DNA from: Synechococcus sp. UW105
Lineage (GTDB): Bacteria; Cyanobacteriota; Cyanobacteriia; PCC-6307; Cyanobiaceae
NCBI RefSeq assembly: GCF_900473935.1
Contig: NZ_UCNN01000030.1
Coordinates: 62,001-126,000, forward strand
DNA length: 64,000 nucleotides
Direction: 5' to 3'
Below are positions 3,025 to 36,436 of this stretch, one piece after another (the stretch's first letter is position 1; each line of letters opens with the position of its first letter). The notes beneath the pieces are model-generated. The model searched no databases, was not told the origin of the DNA, and saw only the letters and a program-made list of their open reading frames with translations. The position numbers and the translations under genes are program-made.

Positions 3025-3222
3025 TTAGGGCTGCTGCTCTAGCCGATAGCGCTGCTTTTCGCTCATCAGCTCGTTTTCCAATTGACCAATCAATCTGCTG
3101 ACGAGGGTTTGAAATTCGGGTTGGCATCCGCGGAATGCTGCTTTGTGGCGGATCGGCTCGTTGCGGGTGCGTAGATCGGTGAGCATCAGCTCCAGGGCGT
3201 CGATGCTGGCGTTGCTGTTCAT
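3025..3222 (-). CDS. Hypothetical small cytosolic protein
   Basis: 65 residues from ATG 3222 (MNSNASIDALELMLTDLR). It is soluble and predicted helical, with charged repeats (LIGQLENELMSEKQRYRLEQQ). The frame stays open further upstream to 3279, but that extension is Cys/Pro-rich and unlike coding sequence, so the internal ATG was chosen. It lies just downstream of the ABC ATPase and could be co-transcribed with it. I do not recognise the family. Confidence 0.55.
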   Translation of the reverse strand: MNSNASIDALELMLTDLRTRNEPIRHKAAFRGCQPEFQTLVSRLIGQLENELMSEKQRYRLEQQP

Positions 3223-3247
3223 GGCTCGGATCCACGTTCCCGAGAGG

Positions 3248-9186: not shown

Positions 9187-10889
9187 CGTCTCTCACCTCG
9201 TGGGCTGTTCAACAACTGCTCCGCACTCTCTAAGCAATCGGCACTTTGCGCCGTGCGGTCGTGGCGCCAACGCAGGATGCGTGGGAAGCGCACGGCTAGT
9301 CCGCACTTGTGTCTTTTGGAAGGTTGAATCCCCTCGAAGCCGAGTTCAAAGACCAGTTCTGGTTCCACGACCCTTGTCGGTCCGAACCGCTCGCGGGTAT
9401 GGCTCCTGATCCAGCGGTCAAGCGTCAGAATTTCAGCATCCCCAAGGCCGGAATAGGCCTTGGCGAAGGTCACCAATTTGGGCTTGTTGTTATCCGTCGC
9501 CCTGCAATCCCAAAGAGCGAAGGTGTAGTCCGTGAAAAGGTTTGCGCGGCGACCACTGCCTGCCTGGGCGTAGATCAAGACAGCATCCAGCCGCATGGGG
9601 TCAAGCTTGTATTTCCACCAGTGACCTCGTTGACGTCCTGCCAGATAGGGCGAACTCAGTTGTTTGAGCATCAACCCTTCGGCACCGCCTTCCCCTGCAA
9701 TTGTGCGCAGCTGCGCCAAGTGGTCCCAACTCTCTAGGCGATGGCCAGCACTGCGTTGCAGACGCCAGCTCTCCTCAATGTCTGCAACAGAGTTCAGGGC
9801 ATTAAGCGCAGTGAGGCGCTGAACAAGAGGATGTGCTCGGAGGTCCTTACCCTCTTGCTCAAGTAGGTCATAGGCGATGAACTGCACCGGGCATTCCTGA
9901 CGAATCTTTGCCCCGACATGCTTACGGCCGATCCGGCGTTGAAGGTTGCTGAAAGGAAGGGGACGGCATTGATCACGTTCCCAACAGATCACTTCACCAT
10001 CAAGCACAGTGTTGACCGGTAATGCTTTGGCCATCGTCACCAGCTCAGGGAAGCTGACATTCACCAGTTCCTCACCGCGGCTCCAAAGAAAGACGCCCTC
10101 TTTGCGATGGATCAGCTGCCCTCGGATCCCGTCCCATTTCCATTCAACCCACCAGTCTTCCGCTGGTGTGCAGACCATTCTCTCTAGTTGCACCGGACTA
10201 GCCAGAAAGAAGGGGTAAGGCACAGCCCCTCGATCGCGTCGCGTCTGCTTCGCCGGTGCTGTTAGTTGATCAAACCACTCGGCACTGGGTTCAACCTCTC
10301 CCATGAGTCGTTCCAGCACATCGGTGTTGCGTAGAGAGAAGGCAGCGGCAATGGCTTTCACCACGAGGCCGCGGGCCACACCAATGCGAAACCCACCGGT
10401 GATCAGTTTGTTGAGGAGCCAATGATGCTCTTCCGGAACCGTCGCCCAAATCGAGAGCATGGCCTCTTGTTGCTGGGTTGGGGAGGAACGCGCCAAGGAC
10501 GGCAATAACGTCTCCATCCACCAATGCAAGGCGGGTTTGTTCGCCACTGCTGCGAGGAGCTCGCGGAGTTGTGGATCCTTCAGTTCAGGCCGTTGGAGGC
10601 ATTGATCCTTCAACTGTGGCCATAACAGGCAGATCGTTTCAGCTGAATCGCCGACGTGGCTGTGGCATTCGTTGAATAACCACTCTGGAAATGCGACTGA
10701 CTCTTGCAGGATCTCGCGTAATCGCCGCCCCGTCAGCATCCGACGTCGGCGTTCCCCGAGCAGCAGTGCCAAGGCCCAGCATCCATCCTTGGGATCAACG
10801 GCGACGAGGTAGTGCTTGAGCAACTCCACTTTGCGCAAGGAGCTGCTGGTGCCATCCAAGCAATCGATTAATTCACCGAATGTTTCCAC
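9183..10889 (-). CDS. ATP-dependent DNA ligase (ligase-associated repair cassette)
   Basis: 568 residues. The adenylation motif is EWKWDGIRGQ with the AMP-accepting lysine at 251; ELVFELGFEGIQPSKRHKCGLAVRFPRILR covers motifs of the OB domain, and an N-terminal helical DNA-binding domain precedes. Bacterial NAD-dependent LigA normally does replication, so this enzyme probably works in repair. It sits between the MBL exonuclease (99 bases upstream) and the helicase (4-base overlap), the standard cassette order. Confidence 0.92.
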   Translation of the reverse strand: METFGELIDCLDGTSSSLRKVELLKHYLVAVDPKDGCWALALLLGERRRRMLTGRRLREILQESVAFPEWLFNECHSHVGDSAETICLLWPQLKDQCLQRPELKDPQLRELLAAVANKPALHWWMETLLPSLARSSPTQQQEAMLSIWATVPEEHHWLLNKLITGGFRIGVARGLVVKAIAAAFSLRNTDVLERLMGEVEPSAEWFDQLTAPAKQTRRDRGAVPYPFFLASPVQLERMVCTPAEDWWVEWKWDGIRGQLIHRKEGVFLWSRGEELVNVSFPELVTMAKALPVNTVLDGEVICWERDQCRPLPFSNLQRRIGRKHVGAKIRQECPVQFIAYDLLEQEGKDLRAHPLVQRLTALNALNSVADIEESWRLQRSAGHRLESWDHLAQLRTIAGEGGAEGLMLKQLSSPYLAGRQRGHWWKYKLDPMRLDAVLIYAQAGSGRRANLFTDYTFALWDCRATDNNKPKLVTFAKAYSGLGDAEILTLDRWIRSHTRERFGPTRVVEPELVFELGFEGIQPSKRHKCGLAVRFPRILRWRHDRTAQSADCLESAEQLLNSPRGERR

Positions 10890-10988
10890 CGATCGGGGTC
10901 AGGCTGAGGCCAAGGGCAAGGTGTTGCAGGTGTTGGCTGAGCAGAACAAGGACCAGCACAGGATTGACGAGCCGAGGTTGACGTTAGG

Positions 10989-11966
10989 TCAACTGAGTTC
11001 GCTGAGGGGAGTGGCGTCGATTCCTTCGACTTCCTTGAGGTAGCGCACCAGCACATCGTTCTGGCCGTGGGTCACAAACACCTTTTTCGCTTTGCTCTCC
11101 TTTACGGTTTGGATCAGTCCTTGCCAATCGGCGTGGTCACTGAGAACAAAGCCACGTTCATACCCCCGTCGGCGTCGCGCGCCGCGCACAGCCATCCAGC
11201 CTGAGGCAAAGCCGGTTTGTGGTGATTGAAATCGGCGCATCCAGCTCGACCTGTGGGCTGATGGTGGTGCCAGCACGAGTCGGCCAGCCAGGCTTTCGTT
11301 CTTAGCGACTTCACTCACTGGACGACTGGGCAACATCGCGACCTTCGCTGAGCGGTAATGACGTGTGACGGTCTCCACGGCTCCGTGCAGCAAGACCTCA
11401 TCATCAAGGCCAATTGCGGCGAGCTCTGCGAGGATTCTTTGGGCTTTGCCGAATGCATAACAGAACAGCAGAGACGGTCGCGTTGTGTCGCTTTTCCACC
11501 AGTTGCAGATGTCGTGCGCTATCGCTGCGCCATCAAGCCAGCGATAGATCGGTAGAGCGAACGTCGCTTCTGTGATCAACACATCGCAGCTCACAGGTTC
11601 GAAGGCAGAGCAGCTTGGATCGGCAGAACGTTTGTAATCGCCTGTGACCACCCACACCTCTCCATCGACCTCCACACGGATCTGAGCGCTGCCGAGAACA
11701 TGGCCAGCACTGTGAAAGGACAGGGTTGCCGCTCCGATGCGGTGCTGTTCCCCATAGGCCAGGGTCTGGAGATTGATGTTTTGCCCGAGACGTTGGCGCA
11801 GGATTCCAGCACTATTTGTGGTGGCCCAGTACTCCTCACACCCCGCCTTGGCATGGTCTGCATGCGCGTGGGTGATCAAAGCTCTACGCACGGGGCGGTG
11901 CGGGTCGATCCAGGCATCAGCCCTGCGGCAATACAGACCGCTATCGGTGAGCTCCATGACTGGCAT
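10989..11966 (-). CDS. Ligase-associated DNA damage response exonuclease (MBL fold)
   Basis: 325 residues, metallo-beta-lactamase/beta-CASP nuclease. The zinc motif is THAHADHA with His33, His35, Asp36 and His37; further ligands are in HSAGHVLGSAQ and VVTGDYKRSAD, and the C-terminal VLSDHADW and VFVTHGQ are beta-CASP motifs. It is the first gene of the exonuclease-ligase-helicase set. Two ATGs nine bases apart (11966 and 11957) are both possible starts. Confidence 0.9.
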   Translation of the reverse strand: MPVMELTDSGLYCRRADAWIDPHRPVRRALITHAHADHAKAGCEEYWATTNSAGILRQRLGQNINLQTLAYGEQHRIGAATLSFHSAGHVLGSAQIRVEVDGEVWVVTGDYKRSADPSCSAFEPVSCDVLITEATFALPIYRWLDGAAIAHDICNWWKSDTTRPSLLFCYAFGKAQRILAELAAIGLDDEVLLHGAVETVTRHYRSAKVAMLPSRPVSEVAKNESLAGRLVLAPPSAHRSSWMRRFQSPQTGFASGWMAVRGARRRRGYERGFVLSDHADWQGLIQTVKESKAKKVFVTHGQNDVLVRYLKEVEGIDATPLSELS

Positions 11967-12195
11967 GCAGACATTCTGACCTTGCGATCACTGGGATTGA
12001 GAGCCGATCGTTTGGGTGGAGTGCTGTTTGCTCGGCTTTGGCGAGCTCCGATTCAAGGCCGTTCTCCGCTTGGGATGCCCGGTTGTCGATCGCGTCGGCA
12101 CCATCCCAGCCCCTGTCCTGCCGCAATGGCGTACGGGGGCGATGACGTGTTCGTCGGAACGTCGGTGCTACGTATCTCAGAACGGCTGGTTCCGA

Positions 12196-13167
12196 TCAGC
12201 GACTCATCTCGAGCATTCGCTGGATCGGTGCTTCCGCTTGGGCGCGAAGGGATTCTTCCATGGTGATTTCTGGCGAGAGAGACACCAAGCACGCATGAAG
12301 CTTTTCGAGGGTATTGAGCCGCATGTAGGGGCAAGCGTTGCAGCTGCATCCATCAGTGCCAGGAACATCGAGGAAGTGCTTCTGAGGAAGCCTCCTCTTC
12401 ATTTGATGAATGATCCCAGGCTCAGTCAGAACGATGAACGTCTCAGAGGTGCTGGTTTCGGCGTATTGGAGAAGTTTGCTGGTGGAACCAATGAAATCTG
12501 CCTGTTCAAGCAGGGATTGGATGCACTCTGGATGGGCGATCACTTCGGCATCGGGATGACGCAGTTGCAATTTGAGAAGTGCCTCCTCGCTGAAGGTTTC
12601 ATGCACGATGCAGCGTCCAGGCCAAAGAGTGAGATCTCGGCCGCTCTGGTTCTGAACCCAACGGCCAAGATTGCGATCCGGAGCGAACAGAATGGGTCTG
12701 TCATCAGGAAGCTGTCGGACAAGATCAACGGCGTTGCTGCTTGTGCAGATCAGGTCGCTTTGAGCTTTCACCGCAGCACTGCAATTGATGTAACTCACCA
12801 CCAGATGATTGGGATGCTGCGCCTTAAAGGCAGCGAATTCATCCGGAGGGCAGTCATCGGCTAAGGAGCAGCCTGCCTCGAGATCAGGCAAGAGAACGGT
12901 TTTAGCTGGACTGAGAATTTTTGCTGTTTCTGCCATGAAGTGAACACCGCAAAACACGATCACATCGGCGTCGGTGTTGGCTGCCTTGCGTGAGAGTTCA
13001 AGCGAATCTCCGATGAAATCGGCGATGTCCTGCACCTCTGGCTCCTGGTAATAGTGCGCCAGGATCACCGCGTTGCGTTGGCGCCTCAGGGCGTCAATCG
13101 CCGCTGCCAGTTCCGTGGGTGGCGGAGGGGCTACCACGGCCGATGCGGGAACAGAAACAGCGGTCAT
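12196..13167 (-). CDS. nadA: Quinolinate synthase A
   Basis: About 324 residues. NadA condenses iminoaspartate (from NadB) with dihydroxyacetone phosphate to give quinolinate in NAD biosynthesis. Seen here: [55 protein letters not shown] and a C-terminal CSCNACPYM; cysteines in the CGVHF, NCSAAV and CNACPY segments are placed to hold the 4Fe-4S cluster. ATG 13167 (MTAVSVPAS) was preferred to ATG 13176 and to the long extension. It is divergent from the phosphoesterase gene. Confidence 0.93.
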
Positions 13168-13238
13168 TAGGACCATCTGCGGCAGGATGGGGATCAGCCT
13201 AGGCACCCCCCCTGACTGCAACGTCCCCAAGCCTGCGT

Positions 13239-14084
13239 GTGGCCATCGCTGGTGATCTGCATGGGGTTTGGTCTGATGCGGATGCACGTCTGCTTGATTG
13301 CCTTGCCCCCGATGCCGTTTTGTTTGTAGGTGACCTCAGCGACGGGGACCGACGCCTGACGAAGGCGATTACACGTCTCTCTTTTCCTGTGGCGGTGATC
13401 CTGGGGAATCACGATCGCGGCCGAGATCGCAGTGGGGCTGTTTTTCAACAACAGATTGATCTGTTGGGTGATCTGCACTGTGCCTGGCGGATGCGTCACT
13501 GGGACACCCCCTGCTTGGGTGTTGTTGGCTGTCGTCCAGGTACGGCTGGTGGAGGTTTTCACCTCTCCCCTGCTGTTGAGGCGGTTGTTGGTCCGCTCAC
13601 CATGGAACAGTCGGCCGATCGGATTGTGGAGGCATGTCGTGCGGTCCCTGACGATTGGCCGCTTGTTTTACTTGCGCACTGCGGACCGACCGGACTGGGG
13701 TCTGAGGCTGGTGATCCCTGCGGCAGGGATTGGAAGGCTCCAGCCTGTGACTGGGGGGATGGTGATCTCGCTTTGGCCATCGATCGCCTGAGCTGCCAAC
13801 GTCGTCCCCAGTTGGTGGTGTTTGGTCACATGCACCATCAATTGAAAGCGAAACAAGGGCAGCGCCGCACTTTTTACCGCGACCGTCATGGCACTGTTTA
13901 CCTCAATGCGGCTTGTGTCCCTCGTCGAGGCCTGGATGGGGACGATCGCACCCTGACCCACTTCTCCTGGGTCGAGTTCGGGCATGGTCAGCTCAATCAT
14001 GTGAGTCATCGCTGGTACCTGCCCGATGGATCTTTGGCCTACGCCGAAACCCTTTATCAAGTTGGCGAAGGCATCCCGTCATGA
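13239..14084 (+). CDS. TIGR04168-type metallophosphoesterase
   Basis: 281 residues from GTG 13239; an in-frame TAG at 13200 excludes a much longer start. Calcineurin-like motifs are [34 protein letters not shown] and VFGHMHHQL, a full set of metal ligands. The family is conserved in cyanobacteria and plastids; the substrate is unknown to me. The stop overlaps the next gene as ATGA, so both are likely made together. Confidence 0.85.
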
Positions 14085-22316: not shown

Positions 22317-22490
22317 TCAGCTCAGACCTTGGGCACTGACGCCACGAGCACCAGCTCTTAAGGCAGCGATCCTGCCTCCGACATTCTGGTTCTGAACTTT
22401 GCCTAGATGGTGACCCCCAGCCACCTTCTTCAGTTCTTCATTTGAAAGATCTTCTCTGCTGCCTTCCTTGTTGAATTGGTCTTCTGACAT
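22317..22490 (-). CDS. Double-glycine leader peptide precursor, cysteine-free core
   Basis: 57 residues from ATG 22490. The leader reads MSEDQFNKEG, then LSNEELKKVAGG at residues 15-26, a double-glycine site of the kind cut by C39 peptidase exporters; one is encoded at 31148-33391. The 31-residue core begins HHLGKVQNQNVGG and continues basic and Gly/Ala-rich (RIAALRAGARGVSAQGLS). It has no Cys, so it cannot form lanthionines, and fits an unmodified class II or microcin-like peptide better. It is divergent from the peptide gene at 22622 (131-base gap). A decayed copy lies at 23265-23321. Target unknown. Confidence 0.6.
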   Translation of the reverse strand: MSEDQFNKEGSREDLSNEELKKVAGGHHLGKVQNQNVGGRIAALRAGARGVSAQGLS

Positions 22491-22621: not shown

Positions 22622-22834
22622 ATGCCTGAAAAGAACTCTGACAAGGAACTCTCAATTGATGAGCTGAAAACTATCACTGGCGCTGGATATAGTCCGGAAG
22701 ACGATGACCTAGAGTTTTCAAACTTTGTAGGTACTGAAAATTGCAACGAAATCCTTGGTCAGGACAAGGCAGTCAGGAAGATATCAAATGACAAAAAATT
22801 TGTAGGCAATCCTTATCCATCACCAATTGCTTAG
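22622..22834 (+). CDS. Leader-type secreted peptide precursor, NPY-x-SP tail
   Basis: 70 residues. The start MPEKNSDKELSIDELKTITGAG resembles double-glycine leaders (ELSIDELKTITG) but ends Gly-Ala-Gly. The putative core is acidic (YSPEDDDLEF), has one Cys, and closes with KKFVGNPYPSPIA. A GGAAGAGAG ribosome site lies about 14 bases before ATG. The stop is only 6 bases from the next small frame, which ends NPYASPF, so the two look like related, co-transcribed peptides. Export by the neighbouring C39 system is an inference; the single Cys argues against lanthipeptide chemistry. Confidence 0.5.
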   Translation: MPEKNSDKELSIDELKTITGAGYSPEDDDLEFSNFVGTENCNEILGQDKAVRKISNDKKFVGNPYPSPIA

Positions 22835-23752: not shown

Positions 23753-24064
23753 TTAGCAGGGAGGGTTTTTGATACTTGGAGTTGTTGGGTGCGGACAGAG
23801 ACCGGCTGCACTCGCTCCAGAACCAAGACAGGTCAATCTACAAGGCCTCCCACCACCGGCGACGTCTTCAACTTCTTCATCTGTAAGGTCAAACTCTTGA
23901 TTCGGTGATAAGGGATTAAGCAGGATTCCTGGAGGAACTAGAAATCCTTCATCTTTGGCGATCTGTGAAACTGTATCGGCGTCTGCGGCTGCTTTGAGCT
24001 TGTCCTGCAATGTGAGATCACCTTTGACCTTCATCAGAAACAATTTGAGCTGCTCTTCAGACAT
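23753..24064 (-). CDS. Nif11-leader lanthipeptide precursor (prochlorosin-like), 4 Cys
   Basis: 103 residues. Residues 1 to about 50 are a Nif11-type leader (MSEEQLKLFLMKVKGDL, then LKAAADADTVSQIAKDEGF), and LTDEEVEDVAGG ends the 71-residue leader. The 32-residue core has Cys at core positions 4, 8, 19 and 32, Thr at 7, 23, 24 and Ser at 11, 14, 26, and is Pro-rich at the end (PHPTTPS, NPPC). LanM at 25745 would dehydrate Ser/Thr and add Cys thiols, up to four rings. The gene is divergent from the second precursor, 236 bases away. Ring pattern and activity are unknown. Confidence 0.88.
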   Translation of the reverse strand: MSEEQLKLFLMKVKGDLTLQDKLKAAADADTVSQIAKDEGFLVPPGILLNPLSPNQEFDLTDEEVEDVAGGGRPCRLTCLGSGASAAGLCPHPTTPSIKNPPC

Positions 24065-24300
24065 CGTTGGCCTGCATAACTATTATTGGTATAGCATCAG
24101 ATCGAAGAATTGTCACTAATCGGACCAAGCACCCATTGATGCCGACTGTTTCTATTCAGTCAAGCTGACCGGTCGAAACAGTCTTTCTCAATAGGATTAG
24201 GACTTAAATGCCACTGAGCAGTCAAGTCGGCTCTCATGAATTATTGTTTAAATTGATCTGAAACGTAGCGGCCTGACTATATTAGAAAAAAATCAAATTA
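24065..24300. promoter_or_regulatory. Shared intergenic region of the divergent lanthipeptide precursors
   Basis: The 236 bases between the two opposed precursor starts must carry both promoters. The segment is AT-rich, especially next to the plus-strand start, where no Shine-Dalgarno sequence is visible (ATTAGAAAAAAATC before ATG). A TATACCAAT element about 25 bases upstream of the minus-strand ATG could be a -10 box. No operator repeat stands out. Confidence 0.3.
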
Positions 24301-24570
24301 ATGACCGTCGATCAGCTTAAATCATTTATTGAAAAGGTGAAAAACGATCGCGCTCTTCAGCTCAGGTTAAAAGCAGTGGAAACCGATGCCGATTGGTGTG
24401 CAATTGCCAAGGAAGAGGGCTTTTCGATCAGTGTTCAAGATTATCGAAAAGGCTGCGATGAACTAACCGATGAGGAGATGGAGGGTATTGCAGGAGGTGG
24501 CACTTGCTGGTGCGGTAAAACCAAGAAAGTCTGTCGATTCGACTCGAAGGATTGGATTTGGGAGTGCTGA
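24301..24570 (+). CDS. Nif11-leader lanthipeptide precursor, 4 Cys and 3 Ser/Thr in core
   Basis: 89 residues. Leader: MTVDQLKSFIEKVKND, LRLKAVETDADWCAIAKEEGF and ELTDEEMEGIAGG, 66 residues, same Nif11 family as the neighbour. The 23-residue core starts GTCWCGKTKKVC and ends with Cys; Cys at core 3, 5, 12 and 23, Thr 2 and 8, Ser 16, with three aromatic Trp. Four Cys against three Ser/Thr means at most three lanthionine rings and one free Cys. The leader itself holds two Cys, unusual for a cleaved leader. Processing by LanM and the C39 exporter is inferred from neighbourhood and leader type. Confidence 0.88.
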   Translation: MTVDQLKSFIEKVKNDRALQLRLKAVETDADWCAIAKEEGFSISVQDYRKGCDELTDEEMEGIAGGGTCWCGKTKKVCRFDSKDWIWEC

Positions 24571-25744: not shown

Positions 25745-28700
25745 TTGAAAAATAACTGGCAGCACCAGTGGGTAGAAGCGATTGTTCCGGATGAACCGCA
25801 TAAGTTCTCTCGTCGTTTGCTCTGGGATTGCTACAGCCAGGAGGACTTCCTTCAGTATCTTCAATCACCAGGTCAAAGCCGAAATACCACTGGCCTGAAC
25901 TGGGAGAGTTGTCTACTTGAGTGTAGGCGTGCACTCAAGAAATCATGGGATCAGTCGCTACTGCCTGTTGGCAGCGACGAAGAGCAACTTGCCTTCGTGG
26001 ATCTTTGGTGGCCTATTCGTTGTCATGCCAAATTAGTGCTGACGAACCGATTGAAATCTCGCCCTGGGTCTGAATATTTTTTACTACAGGTGTTTGATCA
26101 GTTGGCCGATAGCCTGTTGACAAGGCTTTGCAGTCTTGGGGAACAAGTGCTTTGGGAGGAATTCAATTCGGAACGCACTCCAGGAACCATGCTTCTGGCC
26201 CATCTTGGTAGTAGCGGAGACGGTTCCGGCCCTCCTGTGCGGGATCATTACGAACGTTTCATTCACCGTCACCGTAAGGATGGTCTTGAGCATCTGCTGG
26301 AGGAGTTTCCAGAACTTGGTCGGTTTGTTGGCACGGTGGTGATTCTTTGGTTGCAGTCAAGCACTGAAATGCTGGAGCGGATCTGTGATGACCGTGATGT
26401 GCTGGAACGATTGTTCTCGATTCCTATGACTCATTCATTGCTGGCAGTGCAACAAGGTCTAAGCGATCCTCATCGAGGAGGACGCGCTGTAGCAGTTCTC
26501 AGCTTTGGCTCAGAGATGAAGGCAGAGCAAAAGGTTGTGTATAAACCAAAGGATATGGGTGTGGATTCAGCTTATCAATCGTTGTTAACTGATCTTAATC
26601 GTCATAGCATATTAGCTCCGCTTCGCACCCTCACTATCCACAATGCTGATGGATATGGCTACATGGAGTATGTACCACATCTACTTGTCAAGGACGATAT
26701 TGAGATGGAGCGGTTTTACGTTAATGCTGGTCGACTCACTGCTGTTCTGCATCTTCTCGGTTGCACAGATTGCCATCATGAGAATCTGATCGCATGCGGT
26801 GATCAGATATTGCTGATCGATACCGAAACACTGCTTGAGGCTGATGTACCCGATCATGTCAGCGAAACGAAAGAAAATCAGCAAGAGGCACAACAATCGA
26901 CACTTGCAAAGCGATTTCAAAGCTCTGTTCTTCGTTCGGGTTTGATGCCCCAGTGGATGTTTCTCGGCGGCGCAAAGACTGCTGTGGATATCAGTGCTCT
27001 CGGTATGTCTCCAGCCAAGGAAGCCACTTATCTGGCACACGGCTGGCTTGGACTTAACAGCGACGGGATGATGCCTGGGCGTGTCAGCAAAACATCAGAG
27101 ATCCCTACAAGTCTCCCTGTTGGTGTAGGTAGTGATAATCCGTTCAAGCGATTCATCACTCCATTCTGTACAGGGTTTCAAGATCAGAGCGACAGTTTGA
27201 TCAAGATGCGGCATTCGTGGCTTGCCTCCGATGGCCCCCTCGAGCTTTTTGCAGGACTTCGACGACGGATTGTACTGCGCGCCACCAGGGTGTATTTCAC
27301 GATTCAGCGCCAACAACTAGAACCAGCAGCTTTGCGCTCTCCTCTTGTTCAATCCTTGAAAATTGAGCAATTGGCTCGCAGTTTCCTGCTTTCGGAATCC
27401 AAGCCACTCCATTGGCCGGTGTTCTGCGCAGAGAGGGAACAGATGCAGCAGCTCGATATTCCTTTCTTTACTCATGTGATTGATGGTGATTCTTTGGATC
27501 TGAATCAAAGCGGAGAAACGCTTTCTGATTTCATCAAAACAAGCGGCCTGAGTGCCGCCCGTGACCGCCTCTTGAATTTGAATCAGGAGGAGATTTCCTT
27601 TCAGCTTCGTCTGATCCGTGGTGCCTGTACTGCAAAGCAAATGCGTAGGAGCTCTGAAGAGATACTAACTGACGTAACTAGTACTGATGGATTTATTGTG
27701 GATCAGCAAAATAGTGAAATTGAAAGCATCTCAAAGGTTGTAGATAAAATCAATGATCTCGCAATCCATGATGCCAATGGCCAGGTCGAATGGTTGGGAA
27801 TGGATCTGGGAGGCGATGGTGAATCATTCTCGTTTGGTCCTGTAGGACTCTCCCTTTATGGAGGTTCTATTGGTATTGCTTGCTTAATGGAAAGGATGCA
27901 CAGTTCTATCAATACTGGCAACCTTCGTGTCTCAATCCTCAAGCCACTCTCACAACTCCTCGAACAAGCTAACGACGACGAACGACTTCGTTGGTGGCGT
28001 GATCAACCGCTTGGCTTAAGCGGTTGTGGCGGAATCTTGTTGGCCTTGCATGAGCTCAGCCTCCCCAACTGGGTGGACGAGCTTCTCCTCTCAGCTCGTT
28101 CACGTTTCATCGACTCCGATCAGCAATTAGACCTGATTGGTGGCAGCGCCGGCCTCATCGCCCCCTTACTAACGTGCTCTAGCGATCACGCCCTTGCAGT
28201 GGCAACTGAAGCCGGCGATCACCTTTTAGCCACACAAACAGAGCGTGGCTGCTGGGATCAGCCACGCTCGAGGAACCCTGGCTTATTGGGATTCTCCCAT
28301 GGGACTGCTGGTAATGCCGCTGCTCTTGCACAATTGCATCGAGCAACTGGAGAATCACGCTTTTTAAATGGAGCTCAGGCTGCATTGCTCTATGAGAGAG
28401 CTCACTACAATCAGTCAAAAGGAAATTGGCCTGATTTCCGTGAATCTGATCAAGATCTCAATTACATGGTGAGCTGGTGCCATGGAGCCCCAGGTATCGG
28501 CTTAGCCCGTTCATGCTTATGGGGCACCTCCTTATGGGATGACACTTGCCTAGAGGAAATATCAATTGCTACAGCCACCACAACCACTTTTGCTTCTTCG
28601 GGGCAGGCCACCGATCACCTATGTTGCGGCAGCCTTGGACTGATGCTGACACTTGAAGCCCTTACGATGGGGCCTTGGCGTTTGGACGCCTCTGTGGTTG

Positions 28701-28924
28701 ATGATGCACGATTGGCTGCTAATCGCATCAGGAGCGATGCATTGAAGCGGAGTACAGGCAAGGATCTTGAGTTACGTTGTTTCGGAACTCGAGAATCGAC
28801 TCTTCTGCTTCCAGGATTCTTCACAGGCTTGAGTGGCATGGCAATGGCTTTGATGCAGGATCCTGCATCAAAGAAAACAACACTGAATTTACTAACAGGT
28901 GGCCTCTGGTCTTTATCAAGATGA
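25745..28924 (+). CDS. lanM: Class II lanthipeptide synthetase LanM, ProcM-like (CCG type)
   Basis: 1,059 residues from TTG 25745. The N-terminal half is the DUF4135 dehydratase (ATP-dependent phosphorylation and elimination of Ser/Thr): QKVVYKPKDMGVDSAYQSLL and DCHHENLIACGDQILLIDTE carry the kinase-like Lys, His/Asn and Asp. The C-terminal LanC cyclase has GFSHGTAGNAAAL, then zinc ligands Cys912 (SWCHGAPG) and Cys960-Cys961 (CCGSLG). Cys-Cys-Gly instead of Cys-His-Gly marks the ProcM group, which modifies many prochlorosins. The start is weak: no ATG, no ribosome site. Adding one A to the A5 run at 25748-25752 would join it to ATG 25690 and give about 1,078 residues. It converges on the exporter operon. 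Confidence 0.93.
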   Translation: MKNNWQHQWVEAIVPDEPHKFSRRLLWDCYSQEDFLQYLQSPGQSRNTTGLNWESCLLECRRALKKSWDQSLLPVGSDEEQLAFVDLWWPIRCHAKLVLTNRLKSRPGSEYFLLQVFDQLADSLLTRLCSLGEQVLWEEFNSERTPGTMLLAHLGSSGDGSGPPVRDHYERFIHRHRKDGLEHLLEEFPELGRFVGTVVILWLQSSTEMLERICDDRDVLERLFSIPMTHSLLAVQQGLSDPHRGGRAVAVLSFGSEMKAEQKVVYKPKDMGVDSAYQSLLTDLNRHSILAPLRTLTIHNADGYGYMEYVPHLLVKDDIEMERFYVNAGRLTAVLHLLGCTDCHHENLIACGDQILLIDTETLLEADVPDHVSETKENQQEAQQSTLAKRFQSSVLRSGLMPQWMFLGGAKTAVDISALGMSPAKEATYLAHGWLGLNSDGMMPGRVSKTSEIPTSLPVGVGSDNPFKRFITPFCTGFQDQSDSLIKMRHSWLASDGPLELFAGLRRRIVLRATRVYFTIQRQQLEPAALRSPLVQSLKIEQLARSFLLSESKPLHWPVFCAEREQMQQLDIPFFTHVIDGDSLDLNQSGETLSDFIKTSGLSAARDRLLNLNQEEISFQLRLIRGACTAKQMRRSSEEILTDVTSTDGFIVDQQNSEIESISKVVDKINDLAIHDANGQVEWLGMDLGGDGESFSFGPVGLSLYGGSIGIACLMERMHSSINTGNLRVSILKPLSQLLEQANDDERLRWWRDQPLGLSGCGGILLALHELSLPNWVDELLLSARSRFIDSDQQLDLIGGSAGLIAPLLTCSSDHALAVATEAGDHLLATQTERGCWDQPRSRNPGLLGFSHGTAGNAAALAQLHRATGESRFLNGAQAALLYERAHYNQSKGNWPDFRESDQDLNYMVSWCHGAPGIGLARSCLWGTSLWDDTCLEEISIATATTTTFASSGQATDHLCCGSLGLMLTLEALTMGPWRLDASVVDDARLAANRIRSDALKRSTGKDLELRCFGTRESTLLLPGFFTGLSGMAMALMQDPASKKTTLNLLTGGLWSLSR

Positions 28925-28985: not shown

Positions 28986-31151
28986 CTAATGGCTATTTAA
29001 CATTCTCATTAAATAACCGTGAGATTTGAGTTCATTCCAGCTACCTGTTTCGGCTTGTTTTCCTTTTTCGAGAACTACAATCTGATCAGCTCCTTGAATC
29101 GTGGAAAGCCTGTGGGCGATGCTAATGCGAGTAATCCCTAGGCCATTAATGACCTCGGTGATATGTTGCTGTGAGCGATTATCAAGCGCACTTGTCGCTT
29201 CATCCAGAATGAGTACTTTTGGATTAGTGATCAGCGCCCGCGCGATGGCAATTCGCTGAACCTGTCCACCTGAGATGTTCCCACCTGAGTCACTCAACAA
29301 TGTCTCTAATTGCATAGGCATGGATCGAATTTCGTCGGCAACAGCAGCACGTTCTAAAGCATCCCATATCTGCTCTTCTGTGTAATTGATACCTCCGCAG
29401 ATTACGTCATAGATTGAACCTGCATTCAATCTTGCTGTCTGCATGACCACACCGAGTTGACGGCGATATGAACGAATGGCGAGTTGAGGTAGTGGTATTC
29501 CATCGACAAGTACTTCTCCGGCCATCGGCAGGATAAATCCGAGTAACATTCGTACCAAGGTTGTTTTTCCGCAACCACTAGCACCTGTGATTGCGGTATG
29601 TTTCCCATCAGGAATCAGAAATGATAGGTCTTTAAATAAAGGTTCAGCACTTCCTGGAAACTCATATCCAAGATGCTGAAGGCGAAATTCGCCTTTCAAT
29701 CGATGATGAAGAGCATCTGGCCGATACCCTTCCTCAACATCCGCATACATCACTGGTTCAGCCCTTTTCCAAAGTACAGCTGCCTTGCCTGCTGTATTTG
29801 CAATTAGGTTGGCTGCATTTGTAATCGAACCATTGAAACTATTGAATGCGGCATTAAATGCTATGAAAGCAATGATTTGTTGATTCAGATCAACAGCTCC
29901 AGAAGAAGACAGGATGCGATAGGCAACTACAGAAAAAAGAAATAAAGATGCTAAGGGCGAGACAAGTGTGCCATATTGCTCAATAGCGTCATTGTAAATA
30001 TTATTGCGTAGCTGTAACAGGGCATATCGATTGATCTCGCGCAACCAGCGAAGTAGCAAAAATGGCTCAGCTCCAGCGCTTCGGATTTGTGGCATTCCCA
30101 TTACGGACTGTAGGGAAAAGTTCGTTATTTCAGCGCCACTTTCAAGCAGAGGCAGCTGCAAAACAATTGAACGCCATGTAAGAAAAAGTACGCAGATTGT
30201 AGCGATTAGAGTGAAGCCGCAGGCCCAGATTGCTAGCTCGCGGTCATAGGCAAACATTAGCACAAAATAACTGACGGAAAAAAGAGTAGATAGCAAAGTT
30301 GTAAGAACTCCAGTTCCTAGTATTTGGCGTAGTTCGCTAACTGAGCTAACTCTGGATGCAAGGTCGCCAGTCGTGTATCGACTAATGAAACTCATTGGTA
30401 GTCTCATTAAACGATCCCAAACTGCAGATTGAAGTCGCAGATCTGCAACGCTCTCCAATCGCAGCATCATTAAATTTTGCAGAAACGATGCTGTTACAGA
30501 TCCAATCACAATTAGACCAACAACTATCATCCCTTCTACTAGCAATTGCTGGTCATTCTGAGGAAGTATATCCGACACCAACGTTTTTGTTAGCATTGGG
30601 ATTGATAGGTTGAACAGCATCACCACGGCAGACGTAATGACTAGTGCTGCAATCGGTATCAGTTCAGGAGAAAACGCAAATTTTAGTACTGATATTGGGC
30701 CCGTTACAACAGCAGGAAGTGAGGGATAGATTTCATAAGCATCATCCATAAGGATGATGCTTTGATCTGCATGTTTATGCTCCTGACGAAACGCACTATA
30801 TAACCAGTTCTCACCCCTATACCGGTACAAAGCTTGAGGCTCTCCATTCTTGGAGTCAAAAACGATCATTAATGGAAATTCATTGTCATTCGTTGGATCT
30901 AAGTCCCAGTGCTTCGTTGTCAGATCTCGGGGGGCTGAAATACGGCGATGGTGAATGTCGTTATGATCAAGTAGTTGCACAATATCGGCACCGGGCAGAT
31001 ATTCGAGGTGCTGATCACGTCGGCCCAAAGTAGCCATGCAGAAACCTAACAGTCTCAATTCGGGGTATTGATCGTGCTCAGCCTCTGCGCTGAAGAGAAG
31101 TTCCTCCTCTAGCAATCGAGCCGCAATGAGTGCTTGACGGGAGGTGCTCAT
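28986..31151 (-). CDS. NHLM-type bacteriocin exporter, ABC permease/ATPase without C39 peptidase
   Basis: About 721 residues, last gene of the export operon, starting at ATG 31151 within an ATGA overlap. An N-terminal non-peptidase domain (about 1-150) is followed by a six-helix exporter domain (LIPIAALVITSAVVMLF onward) and a nucleotide-binding domain with ITGASGCGKTTLVRML, signature ISGGQVQRIAIARAL and Walker B VLILDEATSALD. It matches the second ABC protein of NHLM/Nif11 peptide secretion systems, which probably pairs with the peptidase-bearing one. Composition is AT-richer than flanking chromosome genes. Confidence 0.88.
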   Translation of the reverse strand: MSTSRQALIAARLLEEELLFSAEAEHDQYPELRLLGFCMATLGRRDQHLEYLPGADIVQLLDHNDIHHRRISAPRDLTTKHWDLDPTNDNEFPLMIVFDSKNGEPQALYRYRGENWLYSAFRQEHKHADQSIILMDDAYEIYPSLPAVVTGPISVLKFAFSPELIPIAALVITSAVVMLFNLSIPMLTKTLVSDILPQNDQQLLVEGMIVVGLIVIGSVTASFLQNLMMLRLESVADLRLQSAVWDRLMRLPMSFISRYTTGDLASRVSSVSELRQILGTGVLTTLLSTLFSVSYFVLMFAYDRELAIWACGFTLIATICVLFLTWRSIVLQLPLLESGAEITNFSLQSVMGMPQIRSAGAEPFLLLRWLREINRYALLQLRNNIYNDAIEQYGTLVSPLASLFLFSVVAYRILSSSGAVDLNQQIIAFIAFNAAFNSFNGSITNAANLIANTAGKAAVLWKRAEPVMYADVEEGYRPDALHHRLKGEFRLQHLGYEFPGSAEPLFKDLSFLIPDGKHTAITGASGCGKTTLVRMLLGFILPMAGEVLVDGIPLPQLAIRSYRRQLGVVMQTARLNAGSIYDVICGGINYTEEQIWDALERAAVADEIRSMPMQLETLLSDSGGNISGGQVQRIAIARALITNPKVLILDEATSALDNRSQQHITEVINGLGITRISIAHRLSTIQGADQIVVLEKGKQAETGSWNELKSHGYLMRMLNSH

Positions 31152-33391
31152 GACCATACCTCTCTTGGAGCAGACTCTGACTGCTCGTTATCGACAAGAT
31201 TTTTAAATGCTCCAGGTTTCTGCATAAGTTCATTGGGGGAACCTTGCTCCACTACAGAGCCGTTTTGCATCACAAGAACATAGTCACTGCGTAGTGCAGC
31301 ATCAAGGCGATGTGCAACATTGACTACAGTGATGCCACGTTTCTTGAGTGCATCCAGAACTCTTGACTGCGTTGCATTATCAAGTGCACTGGTTGCCTCA
31401 TCAAATAGAAGGATCGTGGGCTTTCTTACTAAAGCACGACAAATTTCTAGTCTCTGGCGCTCTCCACCGCTAAGGTCACTACCATTATCATGAAGCTCAC
31501 GTTGAAATGATTCTGGGTGATCATTGATTGTGCCTAGAATTTGTGCATCATTTGCCGCCTCCTCAAGATCACCAAGCGTGTATCCAGGCCGCCAGAGCGT
31601 GATGTTGTCATGAACACTTGCATTAAACACGAAAACTTGTTGAGGGACATAGGCAAGGCTCTTTCGCATCACACCATCGCCATGTGATACCCAAGGCGCT
31701 CCGTCATAAAGAATCTCACCTGATGAAGGCTGATAGAGGCCTGCAAGAATGCGGACTAGTGTTGTTTTTCCTGATCCACTTCCGCCAACAATCGCCAATT
31801 GTGAGCCTGCGGGTACGACAAGATCTAATCCTTGGATGAAAGGGTTTGAGATTGCATCGAAGGCGAACGATAGGTTACGAAGTTCGATCGAGCCATCTAG
31901 ACGCCGATCAATAGGATCTGATTCTGGCTGTGAGGATTCCAAGCTAGGATTCACCTCAGGATCTTCTTTGAGCTGAAAGGCCCGTACAAGAGGATCGTTC
32001 TCGTTTTTACGCAGATCTTCTAACCTGCCTAGATCACCTATCACTCTTTGAAGTACTGAATTGATCTGTGGAAGTGATGCTATAGGAGCAGTCAGTTGTC
32101 CTTGTAAAAATTGAAAAGCAACAAGAGTTCCCAGTGAAATTTTTCCGGCAATAATTAGAAATCCTCCGACAGTAAGTACTAATCCGCTAAGAAGGAATGT
32201 GCTGCCACTGGCTGCAATCGAGGACAATGCCATTTGAGCCCCAAGTTTTTGGTTCTGCATCACTACATTTCCAAAACTGCCTTGCCATTGACTGAGAAAT
32301 TCAAATTCAAGTCCAGAAGCCTTTAATGTTTCAATATTATTGACACCCTGTAATCCCTTGCCTTGGGCTTTCCCTTGTTCGATCGCAAGTTTGCGGTTAG
32401 CGTCATAACGTCTTTCGGTCAACCACCAGTTCAGTGCTAAATTTGAGATCATTACTACTAATACAAGTAACGCCAGCCAAACAGAAACAAGAACTGAAAT
32501 CATCAGGACAAGTAGGCCGATCCAAAGACTCACCGCAAAACGTAGAAGTTGCGCTACGACAACCTGTGTCATTTCCATCCCTAGAAGCATCCGACTCGCT
32601 ATTTCGCCCTGAAAACGAGCCTGATAGAAGCCATAGGTAACCTGAAAAAGTTTACGGAATAGATCTGCTGTCAGCTTCTTTGAAAGAAGTAATTCCATTC
32701 TTCTCAGAAGAACGAACTGTACACTTAGTAATGCGATCCATGACAATACTGTAAGAAGTAATAGCCAGATAATTGGAATGCCGAAATAAAGCCGTTGGTT
32801 CTGGAGAAAACTGTCTATAAATGTTGAAGTTAATCCAGCCACTAGTAAGGCGATCACACCCTGACCAGTGGCGATTATTATTAACTGAAGTAACGCCACT
32901 CTGTACGGCTTTAACGTGGCAAACAAACCCCATAAAGGTGAATGTTCCTTACCCCCAGGAGTGAATTCAGGGCCAGGTTCGAATTCGAGCACTACGCCTG
33001 TGAAATTGTCAAGAAACTCCTCCATCAACACCCGTACTCGTCCTTGTCCAGGATCACTCAGAAAAACATGCTCCCCTTCAAAGCCTTCTACAACGAGGAA
33101 ATGATTGAAACCCCAGAAGACAACACAGGGGAAAAGACCGTCCGATCGTAGTTGTTCACCTGAGCAGCGATAAGCCCTTGTCTTCAGACCATATCCCCTT
33201 GCAGCGATGAGGACTTGTTTGGCATTGGATCCATCACGATTGACTCCACATGCCGACCTCAATTCACTGAGATCGACGATTCGGCCAAAGTAGCCAAGGA
33301 TTGTCCCCAAGGACGCTGCACCGCACTCCGCCGCCTCGTACTGCAAACGCGTGCGTGCTTTGACACGCCGGCGTTGAAGCTGGCTAGTCAT
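31148..33391 (-). CDS. Peptidase-containing ABC exporter (C39, NHLM bacteriocin system)
   Basis: 747 residues. The C39 domain (about 1-140) has the catalytic Cys23 in LQYEAAECGAASLGTIL, His in FNHFLVVEGF and Asp in FLSDPGQGRV. Then a six-helix membrane domain and an ATPase with IVGGSGSGKTTLVRIL, LSGGERQRLEICRAL and LLFDEATSALD. PCAT proteins cut leaders after double glycine and export the core; sites VAGG, IAGG and VAGG occur in three nearby precursors. It is coupled by ATGA to HlyD upstream and the second ABC gene downstream. Confidence 0.93.
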   Translation of the reverse strand: MTSQLQRRRVKARTRLQYEAAECGAASLGTILGYFGRIVDLSELRSACGVNRDGSNAKQVLIAARGYGLKTRAYRCSGEQLRSDGLFPCVVFWGFNHFLVVEGFEGEHVFLSDPGQGRVRVLMEEFLDNFTGVVLEFEPGPEFTPGGKEHSPLWGLFATLKPYRVALLQLIIIATGQGVIALLVAGLTSTFIDSFLQNQRLYFGIPIIWLLLLTVLSWIALLSVQFVLLRRMELLLSKKLTADLFRKLFQVTYGFYQARFQGEIASRMLLGMEMTQVVVAQLLRFAVSLWIGLLVLMISVLVSVWLALLVLVVMISNLALNWWLTERRYDANRKLAIEQGKAQGKGLQGVNNIETLKASGLEFEFLSQWQGSFGNVVMQNQKLGAQMALSSIAASGSTFLLSGLVLTVGGFLIIAGKISLGTLVAFQFLQGQLTAPIASLPQINSVLQRVIGDLGRLEDLRKNENDPLVRAFQLKEDPEVNPSLESSQPESDPIDRRLDGSIELRNLSFAFDAISNPFIQGLDLVVPAGSQLAIVGGSGSGKTTLVRILAGLYQPSSGEILYDGAPWVSHGDGVMRKSLAYVPQQVFVFNASVHDNITLWRPGYTLGDLEEAANDAQILGTINDHPESFQRELHDNGSDLSGGERQRLEICRALVRKPTILLFDEATSALDNATQSRVLDALKKRGITVVNVAHRLDAALRSDYVLVMQNGSVVEQGSPNELMQKPGAFKNLVDNEQSESAPREVWS

Positions 33392-34800
33392 GGCATGTTT
33401 CCTTTGATTCGAGTCTCTCCGTTAGGGGGAGAAGCCTCTGGTACATCTGGAGGTGCCATCCCAAAAAAGCTACGGATCGCCGGAAGAACAAGGGCAATCG
33501 GAGCAACGCGACGTGTTGTAATTTCAACGTCTATTCGATCACCAGGCGTGGGAGGGAAGGGAAGGGAGGAGTTCGACGTCCAGACATAACCCCCGCTGTT
33601 TTTAGAGACATTCGCCTCAGACCGCTCCAGAGCAAGGATCGCCAAAGCTGGCGAGGGATGGCGTGAAACAATGGTTTCAGCTAGGGCTTTGACCCCGATT
33701 CTTGCTGATACTTCATCAAGACCACTAGGCAATTTAGCCATCGAAATAACCTCCCCTTTAATTCCTCCAACCTCAGCGCGTTTATATCCCGATGGTGTCG
33801 CCAAAGCGCTCATGCCAGGGAAGACTTGAGCCATTTGCTTGCTACTAAGAAATACTGGTACCATTTGAGGTTGGTCAAGTATATCATCGCTTAACTTCAA
33901 TAGAATCTTGCCTTTGTTGACCGTCTCCCCATTATTTGGAATCACACTAGAGAGATATACATTTCTCGGAGAAAATATTAGTTGTCTGTCGATCACCATG
34001 GCTAATTCATTTCTGAGTTTCCGATAAGCTTGGTCTCTTTCGCTTTCAACCTTAATCAGCTCTGTATCAAGGGTGTGTAGATTTGACTTAATGTTGTCAA
34101 CCTTTGATTGGTTCTGTAAGATCTCTTGCGTCGATACATAACCTTTTTGGGCCAGGCTTTGCATGCCAGATAGATAGGCTGATTGGCTTGCAAGTTCTTC
34201 GCGTAGAATATTTTGCTTCGCATTGATGTTTTGGGTCTGTTGGTCTGTCTTACGTAGAAGGCGATTTAGTTGATCAATCTCGCTGCTAAGTTGTTCCAAT
34301 TCTGCTGATGAGCGTACCCAGATCAATAAACGTCCCTTCTTGACTGGTAAACCCTTAAAAGTTTGCTGTAGATTCTGAGTGAACCGATTTGAGGACGTCA
34401 TCTTTGAAAAATCCCTTGCTGATGACAATACAAATTGGCTCGCTTGAAACACATCGTTGGCAAGCTCAGCCATCTCCTGATCACTAAATATATCTGGGGA
34501 GTGCATAAAACGCCTGGCCTCATCATGCCAAGGTTCGTTGAGCTTGTTAAACATGTAAAAGGCTTCGCCATCAGTCGCACTGAGGCTGGAGTTGATCGTA
34601 CTTACAGGAAGCAATATCCCAGTTCCTTTGACGCTGACTGGAATTCGTGCGAAAGTGGCCCAAAGGGCTCCACATATCGCAATTAAAGAGCCAAGGCCTA
34701 AGGTGGCACGCAACGGAGGTGTTAATAAAGTAACTGGACCATTGCGATCGCCAGCACGGTGACGGTTTTTAAGCGCACGTTCGTTAAAAAGGTTAGTCAT
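33388..34800 (-). CDS. HlyD-family periplasmic adaptor of the peptide exporter
   Basis: 470 residues. One membrane helix near 31-52 (TLGLGSLIAICGALWATFARIPVSVKG) is followed by a short barrel segment, a long coiled-coil hairpin (about 165-265, SSAELEQLSSEIDQLNRLLRKTDQQ onward), lipoyl and beta-barrel parts (PNNGETVNKGKILLKLSDD) and a C-terminal RIDVEITTRRVAPIALVLP. It should bridge the inner-membrane ABC protein and TolC. ATGA overlaps on both sides place it in the four-gene operon. Confidence 0.9.
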   Translation of the reverse strand: MTNLFNERALKNRHRAGDRNGPVTLLTPPLRATLGLGSLIAICGALWATFARIPVSVKGTGILLPVSTINSSLSATDGEAFYMFNKLNEPWHDEARRFMHSPDIFSDQEMAELANDVFQASQFVLSSARDFSKMTSSNRFTQNLQQTFKGLPVKKGRLLIWVRSSAELEQLSSEIDQLNRLLRKTDQQTQNINAKQNILREELASQSAYLSGMQSLAQKGYVSTQEILQNQSKVDNIKSNLHTLDTELIKVESERDQAYRKLRNELAMVIDRQLIFSPRNVYLSSVIPNNGETVNKGKILLKLSDDILDQPQMVPVFLSSKQMAQVFPGMSALATPSGYKRAEVGGIKGEVISMAKLPSGLDEVSARIGVKALAETIVSRHPSPALAILALERSEANVSKNSGGYVWTSNSSLPFPPTPGDRIDVEITTRRVAPIALVLPAIRSFFGMAPPDVPEASPPNGETRIKGNMP

Positions 34801-36436
34801 TGGTTGCCCTCCTCACGCATATTCATAAGACGTTGATCAACCTTACCCTTTGTATCACTTGGCCATGTTGATGTGTAGCGATATAAATCAGCTATTGCAT
34901 TGTTGTGGTTTAATATGGAATCCGCAAGTTGAACAGAAGTTTGTGAGACCCTGGCAGTGGCTTGAACTACGGTTGTAATATTTTCGACACCCACTTCATA
35001 GCGTGCTTTTGCCGCCTGTTCGGCTAGTTGAGCACTTTGATAACCCTGTCGTGAACTTTCAATAGCCACCTTGGCTGTCAATAGCTGTCCGTAACTTGCA
35101 CGAACTTGGCGGATCACTTCATTTTCTTTTATTGTTTTGTCTGCAAGATATCCGCGGCTATTAGCAAAGGAAGACTGTGCATTAGCAGCTTTGATACCAC
35201 CATCAAAAAGTTGCCATTCAAATTCAATGGCGATGGAAGTAGACCAATTTCTACTTGCTTGGTAGGATGTTCCAGGATCATTGCTTAATGGTACTTCTTG
35301 ATATCCATTAGTACCCGTAAGTGATCCATTGCCAGCGAGGCTGAAGACAGGCAGGTATCTACGCATTTCTGAAACTCCTAACCACTTGGATGACTCCGCT
35401 TGTGCCAGAGCGGCGAGAAGCTCTTCTCGCTGAGATATAGCTTCTACGATTGTATCTTCAAGAGGCTTGCTCCAAGCTCCAAAGGGTGCAGCAGGTTCAC
35501 TAGGGATAGCAATTGCATCAGGTGATAGTGCAATCAGCTCAGAAAGTTCAGCTGTTTCAGTGATATAGTTTCTTGTATATCCAATTAATTGGCTTAAATT
35601 GGTGAATAGCTGTGAGCGGATTTGCTCAACTTCAAGTACTGTTGCCATTCCGATCTCCTTTCTGGCTTCTATCGTTTCGAGCTCTATTCTGTTGTTTGTA
35701 TAAATCTTCTGAAAACTTGAAATCAATTGTGCTGTGCTCTGCACCCTGAAATAGGACTTTTGTATTTCAAGAATAAGTGACCTAGCGGATGAAAGGAATA
35801 TGTATTGTTGTTGTCTTAATGATGCTTCTTGAGCATTGATCGAAGGTTGTCGCGAAGGATCGAGAAATCTCCATGCAACCTTGATGTTTGGATTGAAGAT
35901 AAAGCGTTGTCCACTACTGGCTCGATTTTGCGATCTGTCGGCTCGTGCTTTGGAGTTAGGCTTAGGATTTTGTGAGTAAAATTCACCAGCATTTCCGTAT
36001 TCGTCGCGGATGAAGCTTGTCCATGTATAGCTAGGGGATTGGAGGTTTGTAATGCTGATCTGGGGATACCACGCTCTCTGCGATGCTATGAGCTTCCACT
36101 CACGAGCCTGGAGCAACGCGTAATTTTTTGATAAAGTTGGATTATTTTCTAGTCCTATCGCGATTGCCTGGTCGAGTTTAATAGGAATTCCTCTTGCTTT
36201 AATCTCTTTCTGTAGACGTTCCAGGCTCTCGACTAAAAGGTCAGGGCTGATTGCTTTTGACCTCTCTTCGGTGAGAGCCGTTGATGGCGCTAGATTGCCA
36301 GAAACATGTAGCTGTTCCGTTACAGAGGAAGCTTTTGCAGTGCTGCTTATAGCAGTACACGTAAGAAAAGCTACAGCGCCCAGCCGCGAAAAGAAAGCAG
36401 ATTTTATCGAATTTTTGAAAACGCTTCGGTAACCAT
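34797..36436 (-). CDS. TolC-family outer membrane channel of the peptide exporter (5' end irregular)
   Basis: Outer membrane efflux protein: GIPIKLDQAIAIGLENNPTL near the N-terminus, paired coiled-coil segments (SYGQLLTAKVAIESSRQGYQ; AEQAAKARYEVGVENITTVVQATARV) and a C-terminal half-repeat are typical. It is the first gene of the operon and would complete the trans-envelope path. In the main frame the only ATG/GTG/TTG start is TTG 36116, yet the frame encodes a signal peptide (SRLGAVAFLTCTAISSTAKA) upstream. ATG 36436 opens a frame joined to it if one A is added to the A5 run (36412-36416), giving MVTEAFSKNSIKSAFF. So the gene is given from 36436; strictly the uninterrupted ORF is 34797-36116. 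Confidence 0.8.

Follow-up and report, generated by a model that had tools for sequence, protein, structure and literature searches.

Two prochlorosin-type precursors beside a LanM gene in Synechococcus sp. UW105: a core with a surplus cysteine and its conserved paralogue

Introduction

Two-peptide lantibiotics, of which roseocin is an example, are made by a class II LanM, with two precursors encoded beside it. The closest described relatives of the genes treated here are the prochlorosins of Prochlorococcus MIT9313 (ProcA/ProcM) and the synechococsins of Synechococcus MITS9509 (SyncA/SyncM). Altogether 484 putative ProcA/SyncA-type precursors have been reported, their genes being scattered or in tandem, and the CCG motif was present in all the LanMs identified in that work (PMC10783134).

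We analysed a window of 64,000 nucleotides (positions 62,001 to 126,000 of contig NZ_UCNN01000030.1 of Synechococcus sp. UW105), in which an earlier note had singled out two precursors with unlike cores, one of them with more Cys than Ser/Thr. Both belong to a known family and are unremarkable members of it, save for a genuine peculiarity, a surplus thiol; the analysis also yielded something useful, a pair of paralogues with a conserved core.

Results

Two Nif11-leader ORFs were found between positions 23753 and 24570, as the earlier note had claimed (Table 1). Since both score above the curated cut-off of the NCBIfam Nif11 leader model TIGR03798 (32.3 bits), they are no chance ORFs. The leaders end in ...DVAGG and ...GIAGG, and with the cut placed after the first GG, core 1 was read as GRPCRLTCLGSGASAAGLCPHPTTPSIKNPPC and core 2 as GTCWCGKTKKVCRFDSKDWIWEC. 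The boundary between leader and core carries GGG, which leaves each core length uncertain by one residue; within that margin, the lengths of 32 and 23 residues and the four Cys in each core were confirmed. The two cores are without similarity, as proposed: their local score was 14, against a median of 15 over 5,481 other core pairs. The leaders had been called the same, but they are 46% identical (33 of 72 columns) and hence of the same family only. The ring partners of Cys3, Cys5, Cys12 and Cys23 in core 2 are indeed limited to Thr2, Thr8 and Ser16, and the claim of a surplus thiol held: the core's own Ser/Thr can close at most three of the four.

Core 1 and the core of another precursor, L016, look alike in the pattern RPxRxxCLG that follows the GG. 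The local score gave this pair no edge (a fraction of 0.53 of 300 shuffles equalled it), and the match was rejected on that measure. When the alignment was anchored at the core start, L016 ranked first of 188 other cores, a rank that is not independent, as the likeness had prompted the test. A relationship between core 1 and L016 is possible.

Two more ORFs of the window have bacteriocin-like leaders, one at 22622-22834 on the forward strand (ELSIDELKTITGAG) and one at 22317-22490 on the reverse strand (LSNEELKKVAGG). Their family matches were weak and below the cut-offs (CCRG-2, 22.7 bits with a cut-off of 24; TIGR04149/CTB, 14.2 bits each), and their putative cores contain one Cys and no Cys.

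Table 1. Positions of the precursor, LanM and export features in the window
Feature	Positions	Strand	Details
Nif11-leader precursor 1	23753..24064	-	103 aa; TIGR03798 47.8 bits, E 1.3e-12
Precursor 1 leader	24064-23852	-	71 residues
Precursor 1 core	23851-23756	-	32 aa; Cys 4, 8, 19, 32; six Ser/Thr
Nif11-leader precursor 2	24301..24570	+	89 aa; TIGR03798 69.5 bits, E 2.2e-19
Precursor 2 leader	24301-24498	+	66 residues; Cys33 and Cys52 inside
Precursor 2 core	24499-24567	+	23 aa; Cys 3, 5, 12, 23; Thr 2, Thr 8, Ser 16
Class II lanthipeptide synthetase LanM, ProcM-like	25745..28924	+	TIGR03897 763.2 bits, cut-off 304; coordinates assume a TTG start
Second ABC exporter subunit	28986..31157	-	TIGR03797 539.2 bits, below equivalog cut-off 709.4
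ABC exporter with N-terminal C39 peptidase, LanT-like	31148..33391	-	TIGR03796 692.9 bits, below equivalog cut-off 853.3
HlyD-like adaptor	33388..34800	-	TIGR03794 91.1 bits, below cut-off 156.2
TolC-like outer-membrane channel	34797..36116	-	TIGR01844 E 1e-19, 70.8 bits, below cut-off 225.15

The source genome (2.66 Mb in 31 contigs, 99.9% complete) contains 31 Nif11 matches at E<=0.1, 26 of them over the cut-off. From the best 20 of these matches, at least 17 prochlorosin-type precursors were recognised, 16 with leaders that end in GG and one, L012, with TGS. Three were set aside: L017 and L020, which lack a GG boundary, and L019, in which a GG is present but the leader is of another kind and no Cys follows. 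The count is a lower bound because 11 weaker matches stand outside it. Precursors 1 and 2 are therefore two of at least 17 prochlorosin-type precursors in a genome with a single LanM, and the earlier picture of two cores behind one leader takes in merely a slice of the set.

The LanM lies about 1.2 kb downstream of precursor 2 and is the sole LanM match in the 99.9% complete genome. Its translation contains SWCHGAPG and HLCCGSLG, the latter with the CCG zinc motif, which was present in all 19 LanMs compared (that of the window and 18 relatives). Among its relatives with solved structures are LicM2 (6st5) and CylM (5dzt). A LanM was found in 12 of the 31 genomes of the genus, the source genome counted, and in 5 of 6 further genomes picked for strong precursor matches. 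The single LanM of the source genome presumably serves its prochlorosin-type precursors.

The window LanM is 59% identical to that of genome G100, which also encodes cores that we recognise as Pcn2.8 and Pcn1.7 (prochlorosins 2.8 and 1.7) and which, judged by its cores, we take to be MIT9313-like. In a tree of the 19 LanMs, drawn with a midpoint root for display only and with several long branches and 4 of its 16 inner forks open, the window LanM paired with that of G005 (support 95/93). A separate group of seven rows (100/100) comprised one of the two LanMs of G008 together with those of G012, G016, G023, G025, G028 and G208. The window LanM stands outside this group (the one with G008a, G028, G025 and G016), which we assume to hold the SyncM type.

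A contig search with the LanM gave a single locus, in the alphaproteobacterium Roseovarius lutimaris DSM 28463 (L102, NZ_FOVP01000019.1); the cyanobacterial LanMs came from a separate genome search. The locus encodes a CCG LanM (9986-13183, 56% identical to the window LanM) and, beside it, a Nif11-leader precursor (13346-13633; TIGR03798 44.8 bits, over the cut-off) whose sequence ends in ELEGCCASTGTVKTGISLCKDCE. This LanM is sister to those of G100, G147 and G059 (99/99), which suggests transfer of LanM between marine cyanobacteria and Roseobacteraceae. It may also be noted that the two LanMs of the 3.3-Mb genome G008 (L032 and L034) fall into different parts of the tree; a first look at this genome gave 261 precursor candidates. 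A published strain, BIOS-E1-4, has two ProcM-like enzymes (PMC10783134), and G008 may be that strain.

Taken with the Nif11-like leaders and their double-Gly ends, the single CCG LanM among many precursors, a TIGR03897 score above the cut-off for a class II enzyme and the unlike cores, the two genes are near certain to be procA/syncA-type members of the prochlorosin/synechococsin family. The YcaO cyclodehydratase of YcaO/LAP RiPPs was not matched in the genome at E<=0.001. The hypervariable prochlorosin pattern that had been proposed for the locus stood as regards the one CCG LanM and the many Nif11 precursors; it failed for core 2, which has a paralogue with a conserved core (see below).

Four exporter genes follow on the strand opposite to LanM, and the best family match of each is under the curated cut-off. 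The translation of the ABC exporter at 31148..33391 contains AAECGAAS and NHFLVVEG..SDPG, which we take to hold the Cys and the His/Asp of a C39 peptidase; it is a candidate for both leader peptidase and exporter. No C39 domain was seen by eye at the N-terminus of the other subunit.

The frequency of a surplus Cys was assessed in related cores. From the window and loci L001-L142, 249 distinct Nif11 proteins were drawn, of which 40 were dropped (25 with no Met start, 7 with no recognised cut, 4 incomplete, 3 with a low score and 1 for core length). The cut sites of the remaining 209 distinct cores were set by pattern, the loci had mostly been collected for their similarity to the window precursors, and shared ancestry among these cores is possible. 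Exactly four Cys were present in 22 of the 209. Cys outnumbered Ser/Thr in 11, core 2 among them. Another of these occurs in the source genome (TDIELRCLGGGVNENYGRFVQC) and another in G100 (MQAGSCNWICFVNGVYINDGRMANKAI); the core FHACACI, found here in L131, has already been published as a Cys-excess core of KORDI-100 (PMC10783134). Core 2 is therefore not alone in its excess.

Among the 197 cores of 8 to 40 residues, 10 (core 2 included) had a Cys excess and about 38 were expected; none of 5,000 permutations, in which Ser/Thr counts were shuffled within length classes, gave a value as low. When cores with fewer than two Cys were left out, 10 of the remaining 141 had an excess, against 24 expected (0 of 3,000 permutations as low). 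When 171 two-residue combinations were compared over the 197 cores, Ser+Thr tracked the Cys count best, with a partial rank correlation of 0.40 after correction for length. As the excess is rarer than expected and Ser+Thr tracks Cys, cores in general have their residues balanced for closing rings, and core 2 is an exception to this trend. The tracking is a sign of selection for ring closure. No enrichment of CC or CxC was found in the Cys-excess cores: 5 of the 11 have one of these, as do 40 of the 136 other cores (Fisher p 0.31).

A paralogue of precursor 2, L015, was found on contig 27 of the source genome. It is a Nif11-leader protein (TIGR03798 63.4 bits, over the cut-off), identical to the precursor 2 leader at 45 of 66 positions (68%). 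The two leaders have in common two Cys, in the motifs ADWC and KGC, which occur in 2 of the 209 leaders. Its core, ASWWKKKRCHFGSKHYIYEC, aligned with core 2 over 20 positions, 10 of them identical. None of 300 shuffles reached the score of 51, which was fifth of the 5,481 pairs with leader identity of at least 0.65 (median 15).

The alignment keeps Thr2/Ser2, Cys12/Cys9, Ser16/Ser13 and Cys23/Cys20 (core 2/L015), and both proteins stop directly after ...EC, which counts against an origin of the last Cys by frameshift. The L015 core is balanced, with two Ser and two Cys. Cys3, Cys5 and Thr8 occur in core 2 and not in L015: Cys3 and Thr8 stand opposite Trp and Lys, and the stretch Cys5-Gly6-Lys7 is unmatched, through an insertion in one or a deletion in the other. 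The L015 core has a charge of +4, reached by 6 of the 197 cores, and core 2 a charge of +2, reached by 39. An antimicrobial activity of L015, guessed from this charge, is a lead, no more.

For the leaders of precursor 2 and L015, dN was 0.22 and dS was 1.57. The codons of the two cores differ at 8 of their 10 synonymous sites and at 14 of their 50 nonsynonymous ones (Fisher p 0.003; 60 sites of one pair from one genome, with synonymous change saturated). These changes suggest a constraint on the core of the pair.

No other leader close to this type was found in 400 genomes of the family or 299 of the order (overlapping sets), where scoring was limited to the top 13 to 17 candidates of each genome and a miss is possible, and none in viral contigs. 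A leader model built from the pair scored its own members at 188.8 and 176.3 bits and the next best protein at 74.1. When core 2 alone was searched against the 31 genomes of the genus, matches other than itself were weak (best E 0.048; L015, E 0.27). Over the 300 bases on each side of precursor 2 and of L015, no alignable stretch was found beyond short chance matches.

The stretch around L015 (L152) has three Nif11 precursors, L015 being one, and at 3113-3352 an ORF that resembles CCRG-2 (19.8 bits, under the cut-off of 24). A recombinase of the phage-integrase family is encoded at 1860-2630 on the forward strand, about 3.5 kb from L015 (PF00589 42.4 bits, cut-off 27.1).

Pairs with leader identity of at least 0.70 were examined with 200 shuffles each, a limit below which the core 2/L015 pair falls and which leaves it outside this comparison; 36 of 3,528 pairs had a core p<=0.005, about the chance level. 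Most pairs with similar leaders have unrelated cores, while a few cores, including that of core 2/L015, are conserved. Cores are usually regarded as hypervariable, and a search for function would best start from the conserved-core pairs.

Two other cores recurred. The sequence CQVNSA(K/Q)LSFPPYC(D/E)FP is nearly identical in L051 (G346), L078 (G208) and L142 (G028), that is, in three genomes of two genera, behind leaders only about 65% identical; by this comparison it is a conserved prochlorosin core. The cores CGAWSIKSVGTYQCQGNPQDG and CSPWSINSVGTFGCL are related, with a score of 56 between L009/L005 (source genome, C29) and L026, a precursor that adjoins the LanM of G022.

Discussion

We consider it quite probable that both products are matured by the single ProcM-like LanM and are cut and exported through the neighbouring genes. 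The LanM would bind the Nif11 leader, dehydrate Ser/Thr of the core and close thioether rings with Cys. The C39 ABC exporter would then cut after GG, and the product would leave by the HlyD/TolC-type channel encoded alongside.

For core 2, the paralogue suggests a frame of two rings, Thr2-Cys12 and Ser16-Cys23 (Ser2-Cys9 and Ser13-Cys20 in L015). A third ring may join Thr8 to Cys5 or Cys3, and the leftover thiol would be free, oxidised, or bound to a metal or a partner. An equally simple layout would pair Thr2 with Cys5, Thr8 with Cys12 and Ser16 with Cys23, so that Cys3 has no partner. The suggested two-ring frame is reasonable by analogy with ProcA2.8, in which the C-terminal ring, Ser13/Cys19, is the first that ProcM forms, and with Pcn2.8, whose two rings do not overlap (PMC10306099). 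The homology of the Thr2-Cys12 ring is weak because three unmatched residues sit inside it. Moreover, ring patterns in this family depend mostly on the conformation of the core itself (PMC10306099), and the rings that SyncM makes can run in either direction and overlap (PMC9872173), so that a layout by homology may fail. SyncM also left Ser15 of SyncA2 undehydrated (PMC9872173). Core 2 allows 24 three-ring layouts; 18 of them join no adjacent residues, and in 9 of those no rings cross. We judge that Ser16-Cys23 rather likely forms a ring, while either full layout is doubtful. By the composition of the core, every layout leaves at least one thiol without a partner within it. Core 2 offers a straightforward way to learn how the enzyme treats a partnerless thiol, and no study of the fate of a surplus Cys in a prochlorosin was found in the open-licence literature searched.

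The rival reading that survives best concerns the surplus Cys alone and does not conflict with membership of the family. It takes core 2 to be a mis-matched or decaying core, in which Cys residues gained by chance serve no purpose and LanM makes only some of the rings. This has a real chance of being right, though clearly less than an even one. Insertion-deletion has been proposed as the way in which prochlorosin cores diversify (PMC10783134), and the residues of core 2 that L015 does not match include two of its Cys; yet the reading frame is intact up to the shared stop, and in the core of this pair synonymous change is proportionally above nonsynonymous change. Likewise, the 11 of 209 cores with a Cys excess indicate that such cores are tolerated, whereas the shortfall against permutation indicates that selection seems usually to remove the excess.

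Export of the precursors as Nif11-leader peptides without lanthionine rings appears very unlikely. Other Nif11-related precursors are encoded in 206 of 287 RiPP clusters (PMC10783134), L017 and L020 are examples without a GG boundary in the source genome, and two nearby ORFs have leaders ended by GG or GAG with one Cys and no Cys after them. Precursors 1 and 2, however, adjoin a LanM and have both Cys and Ser/Thr in their cores, and the tracking of Cys by Ser+Thr over the core set is what thioether pairing predicts.

The least credible reading is that the extra Cys serve another modification, such as an azoline made by YcaO, with or without LanM: YcaO and SagB-like genes occur in some Synechococcus prochlorosin clusters and FHACACI, a core with an excess of Cys, is known from KORDI-100 (PMC10783134), but the source genome gave no YcaO match (PF02624, E<=0.001) in a search positive in 5 of 14 control genomes and no match to the Trp halogenase PF04820, which makes an azoline from the surplus Cys unlikely, and no other modification gene was seen near the precursors in ORF lists read by eye, of which a minority of the ORFs was scanned against family libraries. 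Halogenation of the products, for which PMC11791876 and PMC10286304 were consulted, was rejected on the same absence of a PF04820 match in the genome.

Maturation by the LanM is thus the reading we prefer. Within it, a more specific idea may be put forward as a long shot. Core 2 and L015 would form a small conserved-scaffold branch with its own leader, in which one member carries the extra Cys3-x-Cys5 and gives a product with a deliberate spare thiol beside its rings, and the cationic, aromatic L015 would be a candidate for direct activity. If so, the spare thiol of core 2 could be free, bind a metal or link two peptides.

With the two-peptide lantibiotics, the window shares two precursors beside a LanM; it differs in that its cores are two of at least 17, lie on opposite strands and give no sign of pairing. 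The YcaO/LAP Nif11 clusters of Synechococcus KORDI-100 are alike in their Nif11 leaders and in the known Cys-excess core FHACACI, and unlike in that the source genome has no YcaO match. The synechococsins are of the same family, with precursors scattered over the genome, but the window LanM goes with that of G005, outside the group assumed to be of the SyncM type. The at least 17 precursors of the source genome compare with about 79 reported for the SyncM strain (PMC9872173). The prochlorosins of MIT9313 likewise have Nif11 leaders with a GG end, a multitude of unlike cores and one CCG LanM. The likeness extends to the LanM itself, through its 59% identity to that of G100, presumably MIT9313-like. 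The window departs from them in its core sequences, in a core 2 with one Cys above its Ser/Thr and in a conserved-core paralogue in the same genome.
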